From Pseudomonadota bacterium (lineage in GTDB: Bacteria; Pseudomonadota; Alphaproteobacteria; SP197), in NCBI GenBank assembly GCA_039028155.1, contig JBCCIS010000002.1, positions 1-64,000 of the forward strand: DNA of 64,000 nt. Reading direction: 5' to 3'. Made by a program: the position numbers and the translations under genes. Below are positions 7,497 through 58,763 of the stretch, piece after piece (positions within the stretch are counted from its first letter, which is position 1; each line of letters starts with the position of its first letter). Under the pieces are notes generated by a model that saw only the letters and a list, made by a program, of their open reading frames with translations, did not search any database and was not told the origin of the DNA.

Positions 7497-7901
7497 CTAC
7501 TTGGTGAACGGAAAGACGTCGGTGAATCCCAGAATGTCGGTCAGCAGCAGCACCAGAAAGACGATCAGCGCAGCGCCGACGATGACGCCAACCGTGCTTT
7601 CGCCGGCCGGCATTTCGTCAATTTTGTGCATGATCTGGCGTAGCTCGTCGTCGCTGAGCGCGGCGATTCGGGCTGTCGCTTCTTCCGGATCGACCCCGTG
7701 GGCAATCAGTTCCTGACGGACGTCTTCGCGCTCGATGAGGCTCAAGAGCGCGTCGCGATCAAGCGAGGTATCCAGCTGCTGGGTGGCTTCTTCGGTCGTG
7801 ACCAGGCCCGCATGGGCGCTCGTCAGACCGGATGATGTGACAAAAAAGACGACAGCGAGTGGCGCCGCCAAAAAAGTGACAAGTCGTCGGAAACACTTCA
7901 T
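7497..7901 (-). CDS. PA2779-family small membrane protein
   Basis: A 134-residue protein with an N-terminal signal sequence (VTFLAAPLAVVFFVTSSG, cleaved near AHA), a charged helical middle (TSLDRDALLSLIEREDVRQE ... IAALSDDELRQIMHKIDEMP) and a C-terminal transmembrane segment (VGVIVGAALIVFLVLLLTDI). Start ATG 7901 gives the clean signal peptide; upstream in-frame sequence does not. It lies 37 bases upstream of the C39-like peptidase gene, as in PA2779/PA2778 pairs, so it may be the partner or substrate. The family is uncharacterised. Confidence 0.75.
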   Translation of the reverse strand: MKCFRRLVTFLAAPLAVVFFVTSSGLTSAHAGLVTTEEATQQLDTSLDRDALLSLIEREDVRQELIAHGVDPEEATARIAALSDDELRQIMHKIDEMPAGESTVGVIVGAALIVFLVLLLTDILGFTDVFPFTK

Positions 7902-52507: not shown

Positions 52508-53302
52508 ATGGAAGACTTCTATGCGTCCTTGAATCTCAACGTTGAGAGCTACGAGAGCCTGTGCGAACCGCCGCCGCGCGAGATCGCCGGCGACATCGCG
52601 TTCTATGTCGACACGGCACGGCGTTTTGGTGGCCCGGTGCTGGAACTTGCCTGCGGCACTGGCCGGGTTGCTAGGGGTCTGGCCGAAGCGGGTTTCGATG
52701 TCTGGGGCGTCGACGCATCCCCGGCGATGTTGGCGCTCGCCAAGACGCTTGTCGCGGAGAATGCGCCGTCTCTAAGCGATCGGATCACGTTCGTCGAAGG
52801 CCGGCTTGAGACGTTCAACCTCGACGAACGCTTTCCGTTGAGCGTCATTGCCTATCGCTCGTTTCTGCTCCTGCTGACGCCGGAAGATCAGATGGCGTCG
52901 CTCGCGCGCATGGCCGATCATCTGGCGCCAGGCGGTGGAGTCGTGTTGCACATCTTCGATCCGCGGCTGGAGTATCTGACTGGCCAGCAAGATCTGCCCA
53001 ACAGCGAACGCGAGGGCCGCTCGATCGTCACCGGCAATATTGTCCGCAAGTCACTTTTGAAGGCCGACCTTGACCTGATGACCCAGGTGCGCCGCGACGT
53101 CTGGCGCCATGAGGAGTTCGATCAGAACGGCAAAATGTGCCGACGGGAGGATCTTGAGCTGGCGATACGATGGACCTATCGCCACGAGTTCGCTCATCTG
53201 ATTGCCCACGCCGGTTTCGAGATCGAAGCGGAGTTCAGTGACTTCGAAGGCGCGCCGCCAGCTTATGGCGGCGAGCGGGTCATCGTTCTTCGGCGCGCCT
53301 GA
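52508..53302 (+). CDS. Class I SAM-dependent methyltransferase
   Basis: A 264-residue methyltransferase. Motif I is PVLELACGTGRVARGLAEAG, the acidic ribose contact lies in WGVDASPAMLALAKTL, and the post-motif LAPGGGVVLHIFDPR is typical. The N-terminal 30 residues (YASLNLNVESYESLCEPPP) form a cap. The substrate is unknown. It sits 52 bases after rho, separated by a hairpin, and 133 bases before the 2OG-oxygenase-like gene. Confidence 0.87.
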   Translation: MEDFYASLNLNVESYESLCEPPPREIAGDIAFYVDTARRFGGPVLELACGTGRVARGLAEAGFDVWGVDASPAMLALAKTLVAENAPSLSDRITFVEGRLETFNLDERFPLSVIAYRSFLLLLTPEDQMASLARMADHLAPGGGVVLHIFDPRLEYLTGQQDLPNSEREGRSIVTGNIVRKSLLKADLDLMTQVRRDVWRHEEFDQNGKMCRREDLELAIRWTYRHEFAHLIAHAGFEIEAEFSDFEGAPPAYGGERVIVLRRA

Positions 53303-53435
53303 CGGCGGCACACACCCTGACCTCTAAGGCTCGCCGTCGAGCGCCAGGCGTCACACCAACTGCGAAAAGTGCTTTCCATTCGATCCCGGCCGGCCGTAGC
53401 GTGTCGCCAGACACAACGTTGTGCGAGGCGAGGCG

Positions 53436-54266
53436 ATGGCTTTGGACGGCATTGTTGATGCAGCGCGGTATCCCATCCATGACGTTGACGGCCCGGGCTT
53501 CGAAGCCGCGGTCGCCGAAGCAAGGGCCGGTCTGGCCGATGACGGCTGTTCGATTCTGAAGGGCTTCGTGCTGCCCGAGGCCGCGGCCAACATGGCGGCA
53601 GAGGGCGAACGCCTGCGCGATCGGACGATCCCCGTCGAACGGGACTTTTGGCCCTATCCACCCTATCAGCGAGTTTCGGACGGCGACTGGCCGGCTGGTC
53701 ATCCGCGCAGACGCCAATCGTTACGACGCAACCGCTTTGTCGGCTATGACTGGCTGGATGGCCAATCGTTGACCCGGCAGCTTTACGAGACCCCCGCCAT
53801 GACCGAGTTTGTCCGCCGGGTCGCCGGGGTCGACGTTCTTTATCCTTATGCCGACCCTCTGGGCGCTTGCGCCCTTTCCATCCAGGAGGCGGGCGAAGCG
53901 CTGCCTTGGCATTTCGATGTCACCCACTTTGTCGTGTCGCTGTTGGTTCACGAGCCGGAGGAAGGCGGTCGTTTTCAGTACGCGTCCTATCTGCGCAGCG
54001 ATGACAACGAAAACTACGACGACGTGACGGCGGTGCTGGACGGTACGTCGGACAGGGTGGTTGACCTTGATATGAAACCCGGCGACCTGCAGTTTTTTGA
54101 AGGCCGCCATTCCATGCATCGTGTCACCGCGCCGGCGCCGGGAACGTGGCGCTGTATTGCGCTACTGAGCTACTGCGACAAACCGGGCGTGATCGGCAGC
54201 AAAGAGACCCAGCGCCATCTGTATGGCCGCGTCAACCGAGAGCCCCTGCTGAAGATTGCGGGCTAA
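53436..54266 (+). CDS. Fe(II)/2-oxoglutarate-dioxygenase-like protein
   Basis: A 276-residue protein resembling 2OG-Fe(II) oxygenases. The HxD pair is at His 159 and Asp 161 (ALPWHFDVTHFVVSLLVH), and a distal His is at about 225 or 228 (FEGRHSMHRVT). An Arg in WRCIALLSYC or nearby may bind 2-oxoglutarate. Start ATG 53436 is preceded by a GA-rich stretch. The substrate is unknown. It is followed after 33 bases by the first of four SnoaL-like exported proteins, and might be co-transcribed with it. Confidence 0.7.
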   Translation: MALDGIVDAARYPIHDVDGPGFEAAVAEARAGLADDGCSILKGFVLPEAAANMAAEGERLRDRTIPVERDFWPYPPYQRVSDGDWPAGHPRRRQSLRRNRFVGYDWLDGQSLTRQLYETPAMTEFVRRVAGVDVLYPYADPLGACALSIQEAGEALPWHFDVTHFVVSLLVHEPEEGGRFQYASYLRSDDNENYDDVTAVLDGTSDRVVDLDMKPGDLQFFEGRHSMHRVTAPAPGTWRCIALLSYCDKPGVIGSKETQRHLYGRVNREPLLKIAG

Positions 54267-54299
54267 GCGCGCGTCCGGCAAATGCGAGGTGGCCACACG

Positions 54300-54788
54300 G
54301 TGAGACGGTTTTTCATGATGGTGATGATCTGGGCTATCTGCCCGATCCCGGTCCTGGCTCAGGATTCCGAAACGCTTGAGGCGAACAAGGCCCTGGCCCG
54401 TCAAGCCCAGCAGATGTGGAGCACCGGCGACATCGCCACGGCCGAAGATGTTTATGCGTCGGCCTACGTGAACCACGAGGCGGCTGACGACGGCAAAACG
54501 CGGCCCGTAGACCTCAAGACCTATCTTGCCGTGATCGCGGATTTCCATCGTTCGTTCAATCCAATCGACGTCACTGTTCTGTCACAGACCGCCGAGGCAG
54601 ACATGGTGGCGACCCGCTGGCAGCTTTCGGCGGTCCATACGGGCGACTTCATGGGTGTCGCCGCGACCGGCAAAGAGATCGTTTATGGCGGAATTCGGAT
54701 CGACCGTATCGAGAATGGCCGGATCGCCGAGAGCTGGGGGAACTGGAACAAGTTTGGCCTCCTTTCCCAACTCGGCCTTGTGAACTAG
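54300..54788 (+). CDS. Exported SnoaL-like protein, array member 1
   Basis: A 162-residue protein with a signal peptide (RRFFMMVMIWAICPIPVLA) and a SnoaL/ester-cyclase-type NTF2 fold: YVNHE, FMGVAATGKEIVYGGI, RIDRIENGRIAESWGNWNKF. SnoaL homologues include polyketide cyclases, but most are uncharacterised. It is the most divergent of four tandem paralogues, lacking the C-terminal Pro-rich tail of members 2-4. The start is taken as GTG 54300; ATG 54282 is an alternative without a Shine-Dalgarno site. Confidence 0.78.
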   Translation: MRRFFMMVMIWAICPIPVLAQDSETLEANKALARQAQQMWSTGDIATAEDVYASAYVNHEAADDGKTRPVDLKTYLAVIADFHRSFNPIDVTVLSQTAEADMVATRWQLSAVHTGDFMGVAATGKEIVYGGIRIDRIENGRIAESWGNWNKFGLLSQLGLVN

Positions 54789-55018
54789 ACGGCAAAACCC
54801 CCTTCACCCGCCCTTCAGCGGCTTCTCAAATTGGCAGGCTGATAGCTCATCTGCGCCCATACGGGGGTAGGGGTCAGTCTACGCCACCATATCTGGGGCA
54901 TCGGCGGAGTGGCGCGCTTGGCCGCGCGGCGCTTCGACGAACGGTCCCCACGAACCGGTCATGCCCTCCGCGCATGAGTTTGGGCAGGGCGTGACGACCG
55001 ACGATAAGGGAGAAACCA

Positions 55019-55543
55019 ATGAACAAGATCGCAACGTCTTTCGCTGCCGGCGTGATGGCTCTCTCGCCCGCCGCCGCGCTCGCCGCCAAGGATAGCGCCA
55101 AGCTGCTCGAGGCCAACAAGGCCCTGGCCCTTGAAGCCCAGAAGCTTTGGGACACCGGTCTGAAGGTCTCGGCCGACGACATTCTAGCGAAGACGTACGT
55201 CAACCATCAGGACACCAACCGGGTGAGCGGCATGCAAACGAAGGATCGCGATGCCTATCTGGCGGTGATCGAGGATTTCGAGCGCACGTTCTCGCCGTCG
55301 GAGGTGACGATCCACTTCCAGGTCGCCGAGGGCGACAAGGTCTCGACCATGTGGTCGAACACCGTCACCTTCTCCGGCCCGTTCATGGGCATCGAGCCGA
55401 CCAACCAGCAGTACACCTATCACGGCATCCAGATCGATCGGATCGAGGACGGCCGGATCGTCGAGAGCTGGGTCAACTGGGACAAGTTCGACCTGTTCAA
55501 CGATCTCGGTCTGGTGAACGAGCCCGTCTCGCCTACCTCCTGA
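55019..55543 (+). CDS. Exported SnoaL-like protein, array member 2
   Basis: A 174-residue protein. The signal peptide ATSFAAGVMALSPAAALAA is nearly that of member 3. The mature chain has EANKALALEAQKLW, YVNHQDTN, FMGIEPTNQQYTYHGI and the block ESWVNWDKFDLFNDLGLV common to members 2-4. The AAGGGAGAA site (55007-55015) is well placed. A 230-base gap separates it from member 1, longer than the spacing within members 2-4. It is predicted periplasmic. Confidence 0.8.
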   Translation: MNKIATSFAAGVMALSPAAALAAKDSAKLLEANKALALEAQKLWDTGLKVSADDILAKTYVNHQDTNRVSGMQTKDRDAYLAVIEDFERTFSPSEVTIHFQVAEGDKVSTMWSNTVTFSGPFMGIEPTNQQYTYHGIQIDRIEDGRIVESWVNWDKFDLFNDLGLVNEPVSPTS

Positions 55544-55568
55544 TCAGGCGCCGCCTGAAAATGTCGAT

Positions 55569-55592
55569 GCGACCGGCCGATCGGCCGGTCGC
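55569..55592. repeat. 24-bp perfect palindrome between SnoaL-like genes
   Basis: The 12-nt half GCGACCGGCCGA at 55569-55580 is followed directly by its complement at 55581-55592. It lies in the 79-bp gap between members 2 and 3. It has no T-tract. It may form an RNA stem controlling downstream expression or be a dimeric DNA site. Confidence 0.6.
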
Positions 55593-55622
55593 GGGTCGAC
55601 CAACAACAAGAAGGAAAATCCG

Positions 55623-56150
55623 ATGAACAAGATTGCAACCTCTGTCGCCGCGGGCCTCGTCGCGTTGTCGCCGGCCGTCGCGTTGGCCGCCACGCAGAGC
55701 GCCTCGAAGCAGCTCGACATGAACAAGGCGCTCGCCCAGATGGCGCAGGAGCTGTGGAGCACCGACACCAACGTCCGCGCCACCGACATCCTGGCCAGCA
55801 ACTATGTCAACCACCAGGACAACAGCAACGTCGCCGGCATGCAGAGCATGGACCGCGACGGTTTCGTCGCGATGCTCGACACCTTTCACAGGGCCTTTAC
55901 GCCCACCGAGGTGACCATCCAGTCGCAGATCGCCGAAGGCGACCTGGTGACGACGGTCTGGGAAAACACGGTCACTCTGTCGGGCGCGTTCATGGGTGTT
56001 CAGCCGGACGGCAAGAACTACACCATCACCGGCATCCAGGTTGACCGGATCAAAGACGGCCGGATCGCTGAGAGCTGGGTGAACTGGGACAAGTTCGACC
56101 TGTTCCAGGAGCTTGGCCTGGTGACGCAGCCCAAGGCGCCCCAGACCTGA
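55623..56150 (+). CDS. Exported SnoaL-like protein, array member 3
   Basis: A 175-residue protein with the signal peptide ATSVAAGLVALSPAVALAA. It shares with member 4 long identical stretches, including ESWVNWDKFDLFQELGLVTQP and AEGDLV, so the two arose by recent duplication. The conserved motifs YVNHQD and FMGVQPDGKNYTITGI are present. A purine-rich site (AAGAAGGAAAA) precedes the start. It is followed after 31 bases by member 4. Enzymatic activity is not known. Confidence 0.82.
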   Translation: MNKIATSVAAGLVALSPAVALAATQSASKQLDMNKALAQMAQELWSTDTNVRATDILASNYVNHQDNSNVAGMQSMDRDGFVAMLDTFHRAFTPTEVTIQSQIAEGDLVTTVWENTVTLSGAFMGVQPDGKNYTITGIQVDRIKDGRIAESWVNWDKFDLFQELGLVTQPKAPQT

Positions 56151-56181
56151 ACGGCGCCGGTAACAACAAGGAAGACATGAC

Positions 56182-56718
56182 ATGAAGCTCAACAAGAAGA
56201 TCGCAAGCTATGCGGCGGCGGCGGCCTTGGCTCTTTCGCCGGCCACCGTCCTCGCGGCCAGCACGGACGGGGCCTCGCAGCTCGACGCCAACAAGGCGTT
56301 GGCCAAGGCCGCACAGGACCTGTGGGCCAGCGACGGCTACACCCAGGCCAAGGAGATCCTGGCGACGGACTATGTGAACCATCAGGATTCCAACATGGCC
56401 ACCGGTGTGCAGAGTATGGACCGCGGTGAATACATCCAGATGCTCAACCAGTTCCGGACCGCGTTCTCGCCGATCGACGTCACCATCCATTCGCAGGTCG
56501 CCGAAGGTGACCTGGTGTCGACGGTCTGGGAGAGCACCGTGACGCTTCGCAGTGAGTTCATGGGTGTCGCGCCGACCGGCAAGCAGTACACCTACAGCGG
56601 CATCTCGATCGACCGCGTCAAAGACGGTCAGATTGTCGAGAGCTGGGTGAACTGGGACAAGTTCGACCTGTTCCAGGAACTCGGCCTGGTGACGCAGCCC
56701 GAAGCGCCGGCGACCTGA
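56182..56718 (+). CDS. Exported SnoaL-like protein, array member 4
   Basis: A 178-residue protein with the signal peptide KIASYAAAAALALSPATVLAA. The mature part has DANKALAKAAQDLW, YVNHQDSN, FMGVAPTGKQYTYSGI, then VKDGQIVESW and the shared WVNWDKFDLFQELGLV tail. AAGGAAG before the start is a good ribosome site. It ends the array; a hairpin at 56751-56781 probably terminates the transcript before the convergent quinone oxidoreductase gene. Confidence 0.82.
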   Translation: MKLNKKIASYAAAAALALSPATVLAASTDGASQLDANKALAKAAQDLWASDGYTQAKEILATDYVNHQDSNMATGVQSMDRGEYIQMLNQFRTAFSPIDVTIHSQVAEGDLVSTVWESTVTLRSEFMGVAPTGKQYTYSGISIDRVKDGQIVESWVNWDKFDLFQELGLVTQPEAPAT

Positions 56719-56750: not shown

Positions 56751-56781
56751 GAGGCCTGCGCCGGGTGACCGGCCAGGCCTC
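56751..56781. terminator. Hairpin between convergent SnoaL array and oxidoreductase
   Basis: GAGGCCTG (56751-56758) pairs with CAGGCCTC (56774-56781), and CCGG-GTGA-CCGG forms an inner stem. It lies in the 69-bp gap between convergent genes and can serve both directions. There is no T-run on either side, so the mechanism would not be the standard intrinsic one. Confidence 0.45.
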
Positions 56782-56787
56782 GATGCG

Positions 56788-57765
56788 TTAGGGCTGGGGC
56801 AACAGGACCGTCGATCCCTTGGTCTTACGCGCCTCGAGATCGCGGTGGGCCTGGCCGATATCGGTGAGCGGGTAGGTCTGGCCGATCTCGATCCTGACCT
56901 TGCCTGCCAGCACCATGTCGAACAGGTTCTGGGCGGTCTGCTCGAGCTCGGCGCGGGTCACCACGTAGTCACCCATGGTGGGGCGCGTCAGATAGATCGA
57001 ACCGGCGCCGGTCAGAACGTTGGGACGGTGCGGTTCGACCAGGCCCGACGACTGGCCGAAGCTGACCAGAAGGCCGCGCCGTCGCACGCACTTCATGGAA
57101 TCGTCATAAGTGTCGCGGCCGATGGAATCGTAGACCACCGGACAGCCCTCGCCGCCGGTCAGCTCCATCACCTTATCGACGAAGCTCTCGCGCGGTGTCA
57201 CCACTGGATGGTCACAGCCGTGGGCGCGCGCAAGCTCGGCCTTCTCGTCGCTGGAGACCGTGCCGATCACCGTGGCGCCGATCGCTTTCAGCCACTGACA
57301 GGCGATGAGCCCGACGCCGCCGGCCGCGGCATGGAACAGGACGACGTCGCCCGGCTGGACGGCATAGGTACGGGTGACCAGAGGCTCGACCGTCATCCCC
57401 TTGCCCATCATGGCGGCGGCGGTGTCAAAGGCGATGCCGTCGGGCAGGCGGAGCAGTTGGTCGGCCGGCGCGAGCATGACGTCTGCATAGGATCCACCGA
57501 CAGTGCCGTGCGCGACCCGGTCGCCGACGTCTAGATGACTGACACCCTCCCCCAGCTGCTCGACGACACCGGCGGACTCCATGCCCAGGACCGCTGGCAG
57601 CTCAGCGGGATAGACGCCACTGCGTTCGTAGACGTCGTAGAAATTGAGGCCGACCGCGTGGTTCCTCAGCAGGACCTCGCCGGGGCCGGGCATCGGCGGG
57701 TCGACATCCTCGATGACGAATTTCTCGGGACCGCCGAGCTCGTAGAGCTTAACCACCTTCACCAT
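56788..57765 (-). CDS. NADPH:quinone oxidoreductase-like MDR enzyme, first copy
   Basis: A 325-residue zinc-free medium-chain dehydrogenase/reductase of the QOR type. The N-terminus MVKVVKLYELGGPEKFVIED and LNFYDVYERSGVYPAELPAVLGMESAG are typical. The Rossmann motif is LFHAAAGGVGLIACQWLKA. No structural or catalytic zinc Cys set is present. It is a close paralogue of the next gene, 26 bases away on the same strand. It likely reduces quinones or enones with NADPH. Confidence 0.87.
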   Translation of the reverse strand: MVKVVKLYELGGPEKFVIEDVDPPMPGPGEVLLRNHAVGLNFYDVYERSGVYPAELPAVLGMESAGVVEQLGEGVSHLDVGDRVAHGTVGGSYADVMLAPADQLLRLPDGIAFDTAAAMMGKGMTVEPLVTRTYAVQPGDVVLFHAAAGGVGLIACQWLKAIGATVIGTVSSDEKAELARAHGCDHPVVTPRESFVDKVMELTGGEGCPVVYDSIGRDTYDDSMKCVRRRGLLVSFGQSSGLVEPHRPNVLTGAGSIYLTRPTMGDYVVTRAELEQTAQNLFDMVLAGKVRIEIGQTYPLTDIGQAHRDLEARKTKGSTVLLPQP

Positions 57766-57791
57766 TGTCGGATCCTCCGGGCGTTAGGATG

Positions 57792-58763
57792 TCAGGGCAA
57801 CAACACGGTCGAGCCGGTTGTCTTGCGCGCCTCGAGGTCACGATGGGCCTGGACGATCTCGCTGAGCGGATAGGTCTGGTTGACGTTGATCTTGAGCTTG
57901 CCGGAGCCGACCATCTCCATCAGGCGGCGGCCGGACATCTCGAGATCGCCACGGGTCGCGATGTAGTTGGCGAGGCTGGGGCGGGTGTAATAGAGCGAGC
58001 CGCCCTGGGCCAAAAGGCCCGGGTTGAAGGACGCCACCGATCCCGAGGATTGGCCGAAGCTGACGAACATGCCGCGCGGCGCGAGCGACGCCATCGAGGC
58101 TTCGAACGTGTCCTTGCCGATGGAATCGTAAACCACCGGCACGCCCTTGCCGCCTGTAATCTCCTTGACCCGTTCGGCGATATCGTCACGCGAGGTGACA
58201 ACGGCATGGTCGCATCCATGCGCGCTCGCCAACTCCGCCTTCGCGTCGGTGCTGACCGTACCGATGACCGTGGCGCCCAGCGCCTTGGCCCATTGACACG
58301 CGATCAGGCCGACGCCGCCGGCCGCGGCGTGGAACAGAATGGTCTGACCCTTCCTGACCGTGAAACAACGCTCCAACAGGTATTCGACGGTCATGCCCTT
58401 CAGCATCATCGCCGCAGCGGTCTGATCGTCGACCGTGGCGGGCACCGCAACGACCCGGTCCGCCGGGACGTTGCGCGCGACCGCATAGGCGCCGGGCTGC
58501 ATGGGATAGGCGACGCGGTCGCCCTCCTTGACGCTGTCGACGCCGTCGCCGACAGCCTCGACCACACCGACCGCTTCCATGCCGAGTACCGCCGGAAGCT
58601 CGATCGGATAGAGGCCGGAGCGCTGATAGGTGTCGATGAAGTTCAAGCCGATCGCCGATTGGGCCAGGCGGATTTCGCCGGGCCCGGGCGGCGCCAGCTC
58701 GACATCATCGAGCGTGAGGACCTCCGGTCCACCGGCTTCGTGTATGCGGACGACCTCTACCAT
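57792..58763 (-). CDS. NADPH:quinone oxidoreductase-like MDR enzyme, second copy
   Basis: A 323-residue paralogue of the neighbouring gene. Shared landmarks are LNFIDTYQRSGLYPIELPAVLGMEA, LFHAAAGGVGLIACQWAKA and FVSFGQSSG. It is first in transcription of the pair. The tandem copies differ in the nucleotide-site surroundings (TVSTDAKAELASAHGCDH here), which suggests different substrates or a recent duplication. Both frames are intact. Confidence 0.87.
   Translation of the reverse strand: MVEVVRIHEAGGPEVLTLDDVELAPPGPGEIRLAQSAIGLNFIDTYQRSGLYPIELPAVLGMEAVGVVEAVGDGVDSVKEGDRVAYPMQPGAYAVARNVPADRVVAVPATVDDQTAAAMMLKGMTVEYLLERCFTVRKGQTILFHAAAGGVGLIACQWAKALGATVIGTVSTDAKAELASAHGCDHAVVTSRDDIAERVKEITGGKGVPVVYDSIGKDTFEASMASLAPRGMFVSFGQSSGSVASFNPGLLAQGGSLYYTRPSLANYIATRGDLEMSGRRLMEMVGSGKLKINVNQTYPLSEIVQAHRDLEARKTTGSTVLLP

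Follow-up and report, generated by a model that had tools for sequence, protein, structure and literature searches.

Four consecutive genes for SnoaL-like proteins, here called sn1 to sn4, occupy positions 54300 to 56718 of the window (the whole 64,000-nucleotide stretch of DNA analysed), all on the forward strand and encoding products of similar size: sn1 at 54300–54788 (162 aa), sn2 at 55019–55543 (174 aa), sn3 at 55623–56150 (175 aa) and sn4 at 56182–56718 (178 aa), with gaps of 230, 79 and 31 bp between successive members. An array of this kind had been described in an earlier note on this DNA, and the family assignment holds: all four pass the curated cut-offs for PF07366 (SnoaL; 93.6, 82.3, 87.4, and 87.8 bits for sn1 to sn4, against 28.4) and PF12680 (SnoaL_2; 45.7–56.6 bits against 27). 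With NCBIfam NF033407 (SnoaL/AknH-type), sn1 scores 26 bits for a cut-off of 200 and sn2–sn4 have no match; with TIGR02096 (ketosteroid isomerase-related) all four score 27.9–39.3 bits, below the cut-off of 97.1. The block WVNWDKFDLF reported for members 2 to 4 is exact in all three (forward strand; 55469–55498 in sn2, 56076–56105 in sn3, 56644–56673 in sn4). Its counterpart in sn1 is WGNWNKFGLL, and sn1 is indeed the most diverged member. For this gene a GTG at 54300, with a GAGGTGG Shine-Dalgarno sequence, is a better start than the in-frame ATG at 54282, which has none.

AlphaFold2 models were obtained for sn1 (pLDDT 92 from a 36-row alignment, with five models in agreement) and for sn4 (pLDDT 79 from an 11-row alignment, its other models being poor). 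Both consist of one barrel domain only, of the NTF2-like alpha+beta type, and match SnoaL-family structures at Z 15–19.5. The nearest structures are KstA15 (Z 19.5 for sn1, 17.7 for sn4), AclR, SnoaL2, and IdmH (Z 16.6–19.5); ChaU is also among the closest folds. MlaC is not among the 50 structural matches listed, a result that carries no weight as evidence.

Signal peptides had been noted on all four proteins, and this stands by a rule-based leader scan and a home-made leader score, on which sn1–sn4 reach 5.6–6.8 and cytoplasmic controls (12 encoded by neighbouring genes, and two SnoaL proteins of the same genome) at most 3.6. The predicted Sec-type peptides are encoded at about 54300–54359 in sn1 (MRRFFMMVMIWAICPIPVLA, followed by QD), 55019–55084 in sn2, 55623–55688 in sn3 and 56182–56256 in sn4. 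In sn2, sn3, and sn4 the sole start codon upstream of the domain, an ATG preceded by a Shine-Dalgarno-like sequence, opens a leader with charged, hydrophobic, and AxA segments. The leaders were also said to be near-identical in members 2 to 4, which is true only of sn2 and sn3 (77% amino acid identity over 26 residues); that of sn4 shares 50–54% and that of sn1 24–33% with the others. Tat export of sn1, suggested by its RRFF, is ruled out by RW at this place in the congener (the second species of the genus, see below), and a lipoprotein reading by the lack of a lipobox in any of the four. We infer from these leaders that sn1–sn4 are periplasmic. In the congener, the leader of sn2 (contig L038, 2175–2699) has a Lys in its h-region and an Asp near the cleavage site and scores 3.9, so that this signal peptide is possibly weakened.

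As had been stated, rho and mnmE flank the array, but indirectly: a methyltransferase gene and a gene for a HalD-like Fe/2-oxoglutarate enzyme separate it from rho, and four genes (qorB, qorA, one for a DUF255 protein, and a ferredoxin-like one) from mnmE. The proposal that it was inserted or expanded between these conserved genes fares less well. In family genomes with both on one contig, rho and mnmE are about 12–22 kb apart, often in a different orientation, and the stretches examined downstream of rho in family genomes, some of them short, contain none of the window's rho–mnmE genes. Since the whole neighbourhood differs across the family, insertion into a conserved rho–mnmE pair cannot be claimed. 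The SAM methyltransferase gene (52508–53302, between rho and halD) is absent from the congener, where rho ends at 408 of contig L038 and halD starts at 579.

The HalD-like gene (53421–54266, forward; PF23169, 45 bits) is syntenic in the congener, and the 33-bp spacer between it and sn1 is 94% conserved there; the two are possibly co-transcribed. Fe/2OG halogenases have an HxG motif. The HalD-like protein carries H-F-D (HxD) in its place and is therefore more likely, on its sequence, to be a hydroxylase than a halogenase. The sn1–sn2 spacer (54789–55018, forward) is 81% identical to the congener's, best near 54819–54863, and is a candidate promoter or leader region for sn2–sn4. It contains no match to the sigma-70 consensus, which is uninformative for this organism; a riboswitch or structured leader before sn2 was rejected for lack of an Rfam match and with a fold z of −0.99. 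Between the array and the convergent qorB is a strong hairpin (56752–56780, no strand assigned; −24.7 kcal/mol, z −3.3) with an equivalent in the congener (−31 kcal/mol, z −5.4), probably a bidirectional terminator shared by both sides. The arrangement would then comprise two putative transcription units, halD-sn1 and sn2-sn3-sn4, the terminator being shared.

The qorB and qorA genes (56788–58763, reverse) encode tandem MDR-type quinone oxidoreductases with 58% mutual identity and no leaders, and are kept in the congener. SnoaL2/KstA15-type proteins partner an atypical SDR quinone reductase in anthracycline 1-hydroxylation, within an aromatic polyketide pathway (PMC12281474); SnoaL2/SnoaW-like teamwork of this kind is unlikely here, since the reductase genes are on the opposite strand, convergent to the array, and their products leaderless. 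No polyketide genes were found among the neighbours scanned, and the genes examined on either side of the array include no identified transporter or receptor.

In a tree of 78 rows, sn1–sn4 and their orthologs form one clade (99/82) with the branching order sn1,(sn2,(sn3,sn4)). It is nested within a larger clade (99/97) holding sequences of only two genomes, the host and its congener, which also contains exported paralogs, C20/C489 and C16, and a leaderless protein, C323. This supports the earlier proposal that genes for exported copies were duplicated repeatedly in this lineage. The genus is represented by these two species, both draft genomes (the host 97.4% complete with 4.2% contamination, the congener with 8% contamination). 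Comparable sequences were found neither in 14 other genomes of the family and order, nor in samples of 385 genomes of the class and 398 of the phylum, nor in 84,980 species scanned with short peptides. In the homologue search, E values drop from about 1e-68 to 1e-24 at the next best matches, and plasmid relatives are at best about 33–35% identical "ester cyclases," with no close member of the clade among them.

The congener (G001) is a MAG, PL23b_bin.48; the code PL23b corresponds to that of a skeleton sample from the coral Porites lutea (PMC9868349). Its contig L038 has orthologs of sn1, sn2, and sn3 (92, 86, and 91% identical) in the same order and setting, rho - halD - sn1 - sn2 - sn3 - qorB - qorA - DUF255. 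No sn4 is present in this array. The pairing of sn3 with sn4 is weak (95/23), and sn4 branches outside the pair formed by sn3 and the congener's sn3. This branch order rules out a recent duplication as the source of sn4 and suggests that it is older than the species split, its absence from the congener being most likely a loss. Within the array, paralogs are 41–63% identical (i.e., differ by 37–59%), with dS of about 0.6–1.4. Between orthologs the reading frames are intact and dN/dS is 0.19–0.24, against 0.07–0.12 for neighbouring genes; selection on the array is thus looser yet clearly purifying. With such differences between copies and such ratios between orthologs, maintained diversification fits better than recent dosage amplification. 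As a separate observation, the host genome (G000, 5.3 Mb) has 29 SnoaL_2 and 14 PF07366 matches (the congener has 9), and other genera of the family have 0–6 PF07366 matches, which suggests that the fold has expanded more broadly in the host genus.

Pocket positions were mapped by sequence alignment to IdmH and to SnoaL, for which the reference sequence is identical to 1sjw over 143 residues. SnoaL requires Asp121, Asn33, Gln105, His107, and His119 (PMC6830212). In the array (sn4 numbering throughout), N33 corresponds to N66, Q105 to G140, H107 to S/Q/Q/R142, H119 to S154, and D121 to V/G156, so that only N33 is kept. With four of the five essential residues replaced, SnoaL-type aldol ring closure by sn1–sn4 is unlikely. 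Every member of the genus clade, and no other aligned homologue, combines a Ser or Thr at the H119 position with the Trp at W158. Also absent is the catalytic R99, D101, D132 triad of limonene-1,2-epoxide hydrolase (LEH): sn4 has W116, S118, and V156 or N157 at these positions (the middle strand was read by hand across a gap), with Y64 and N66 as counterparts of the hydrolase's Y53 and N55.

The predicted pocket is mainly hydrophobic and aromatic. The members have its mapped floor in common (W48, Y64, N66, S154, W158) and differ at lining positions 68, 84, 87, 88, 142, and 156. Extra conservation of the pocket is a trend only: 8 of 14 mapped positions are invariant in sn1–sn4, compared with 47 of 134 in the domain (p 0.07), and neither test is significant (p 0.07 and 0.12). 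Six polar residues, N66, H67, E108, D110, R145, and E153, are invariant across the array, and H67 aligns with His38 of IdmH.

These observations can be brought together in a reading to which we give a probability of roughly 0.5: that sn1–sn4 are a genus-specific, serially duplicated, and diversified set of exported SnoaL-fold proteins, more likely small-molecule binders than catalysts. An ancestral gene would have been duplicated in tandem to give sn1 and a precursor of the other three, from which sn2 and then sn3 and sn4 separated, the copies being retained and diversifying within the genus. Each protein would be made with a Sec signal peptide, exported, and folded into the alpha+beta barrel. 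The floor of the pocket would be common to all four, and a few of the lining residues specific to the member. In the periplasm the proteins may bind small hydrophobic or aromatic molecules for capture, buffering, or hand-over, each member being tuned to a somewhat different ligand. It is the export signals, the hydrophobic pocket, and the lost catalytic residues that make binding the more likely role, and the suggestion in the earlier note of a set of related extracytoplasmic ligands would fit the conserved floor and the few variable positions.

The main rival is that the four are exported enzymes, the pocket carrying out a cofactor-free reaction (isomerisation, dehydration, cycloaddition, or hydrolysis) through residues other than those of SnoaL. 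It is judged less likely than binding, but plausible. The closest folds (KstA15, AclR, SnoaL2, IdmH, ChaU) are all pathway enzymes, the invariant polar residues could serve such a reaction, and the chemistry of the SnoaL family has changed repeatedly, including hydroxylation and dehydration partners (PMC12281474; PMC6830212). IdmH in particular, supported as a Diels-Alderase, works without D121 and H107 (PMC6830212). Against catalysis are the replacements described above, at four of the five SnoaL-essential positions and throughout the LEH triad. The conserved H67 may not be catalytic either, as the aligned His38 lies outside the published pocket list of IdmH, which contains I37 and L39 on either side of it (PMC6830212). 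A more far-reaching reading, that the four exported proteins act together, as binders or as sequential cofactor-free catalysts, on aromatic or polyketide-like compounds outside the cell, is considered unlikely; if true, bacteria would be employing the SnoaL fold beyond the cytoplasm, something of which no report was found.

Two further explanations were also weighed. Birth-and-death turnover would make the copies tandem genes of little consequence, under weak selection and with no distinct functions, a picture to which the higher dN/dS of the array relative to its neighbours, the absence of sn4 from the congener, and the weakened sn2 leader there could all belong. With dN/dS nonetheless well below 1 and frames intact in every ortholog pair, and with sn1–sn3 and their order kept in both species, it is judged highly improbable. 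The other is gene dosage, raised in the earlier note, in which four copies would increase the amount of one exported protein. In its favour are the tandem copies, all on one strand, the resemblance of their leaders, and their good ribosome-binding sites, but a recent amplification would leave near-identical copies, not ones that are 41–63% identical and each under purifying selection. Their divergence, with the paralog dS values given above, is older than the species split, and the congener manages with three; dosage is therefore judged highly improbable. Binding by a diversified set remains the preferred reading.

Among characterised proteins, SnoaL2, AclR, and KstA15 are the best structural matches (about 25% identity), with the same barrel and pocket and membership in PF07366. 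They differ in having no leader in the structures compared and in belonging to polyketide clusters, whereas the array is predicted to be exported and adjoins no such cluster; AclR also has H and D at the SnoaL H119 and D121 positions, where the array has S and V/G. Among PDB sequences IdmH matches best (E 7e-18 with a profile), and it likewise has a hydrophobic pocket without D121 and H107, but it retains His129, where the array has Ser, carries Thr131 and Trp59/Trp63, and belongs to an antibiotic (indanomycin) pathway. The SnoaL/AknH ester cyclases share the fold, and their Y31 and N33 are kept as Y64 and N66, but Q105, H107, H119, and D121 are replaced and identity in structural alignment is 16–21%. 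Closer in location are the extracellular NTF2-like domains DUF3828, DUF3887, and DUF4878, which like the array proteins are exported single domains and are proposed small-molecule binders (PMC3924330), although they are separate Pfam families. MlaC/Ttg2D (PMC8035174) resembles the array by analogy only, as an NTF2-like domain in the periplasm that holds a hydrophobic ligand; it has an extra helical-bundle domain and an ABC system, whereas each array protein consists of a single domain, about 140 aa long. Pythium has secreted SnoaL-like paralogs (PMC5023847) that also carry signal peptides and come in multiple copies, but the seed protein has two SnoaL domains, and the organism is an oomycete that acquired them from bacteria.

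The fold, the family, exported NTF2-like proteins, and multi-copy secreted SnoaL-like proteins (in Pythium; PMC5023847) are therefore already known, and the array, though unusual, is a modest variant of a familiar fold; no report of a diversified tandem set of exported bacterial SnoaL proteins was found in the open-licence literature. It offers a small, clean case: an enzyme-like fold acquired signal peptides, lost most of the residues with which its best-studied relative catalyses, and was then duplicated and diversified in one genus. If ligands were found, they would tell whether exported SnoaL proteins bind or catalyse. This is relevant to the many proteins that automatic annotation, going by the fold alone, calls "ester cyclase" or "polyketide cyclase," a label that is probably misleading for sn1–sn4.

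The earlier note took SnoaL-like proteins to be usually single and cytoplasmic, which is mostly so for close relatives. Few leaders were found by the rule-based scan among about 100 wider homologues; within the genus clade it was positive for the C20 and C16 paralogs and negative for the congener's C323. The C20 paralog, itself exported, is encoded divergently from an exported Ysc84-domain protein, a pair kept in the congener (L032, 1495–1989, reverse, and 2035–2694, forward; L031). Elsewhere there are isolated exported or lipoprotein members and clusters of cytoplasmic genes. In rumen and other alphaproteobacteria (L073, L164), SnoaL-like proteins carry what look like lipoprotein leaders (..LVAC), a separate, independent export of the fold. 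Marine Rhodobacterales, Acidimicrobiales, and others (L075, L079, L083, L084, L085) have two to three leaderless SnoaL-like genes in one locus, as in L079, with ORFs near 7775 and 10224 and on the reverse strand; this recurrent cluster could be a pathway.
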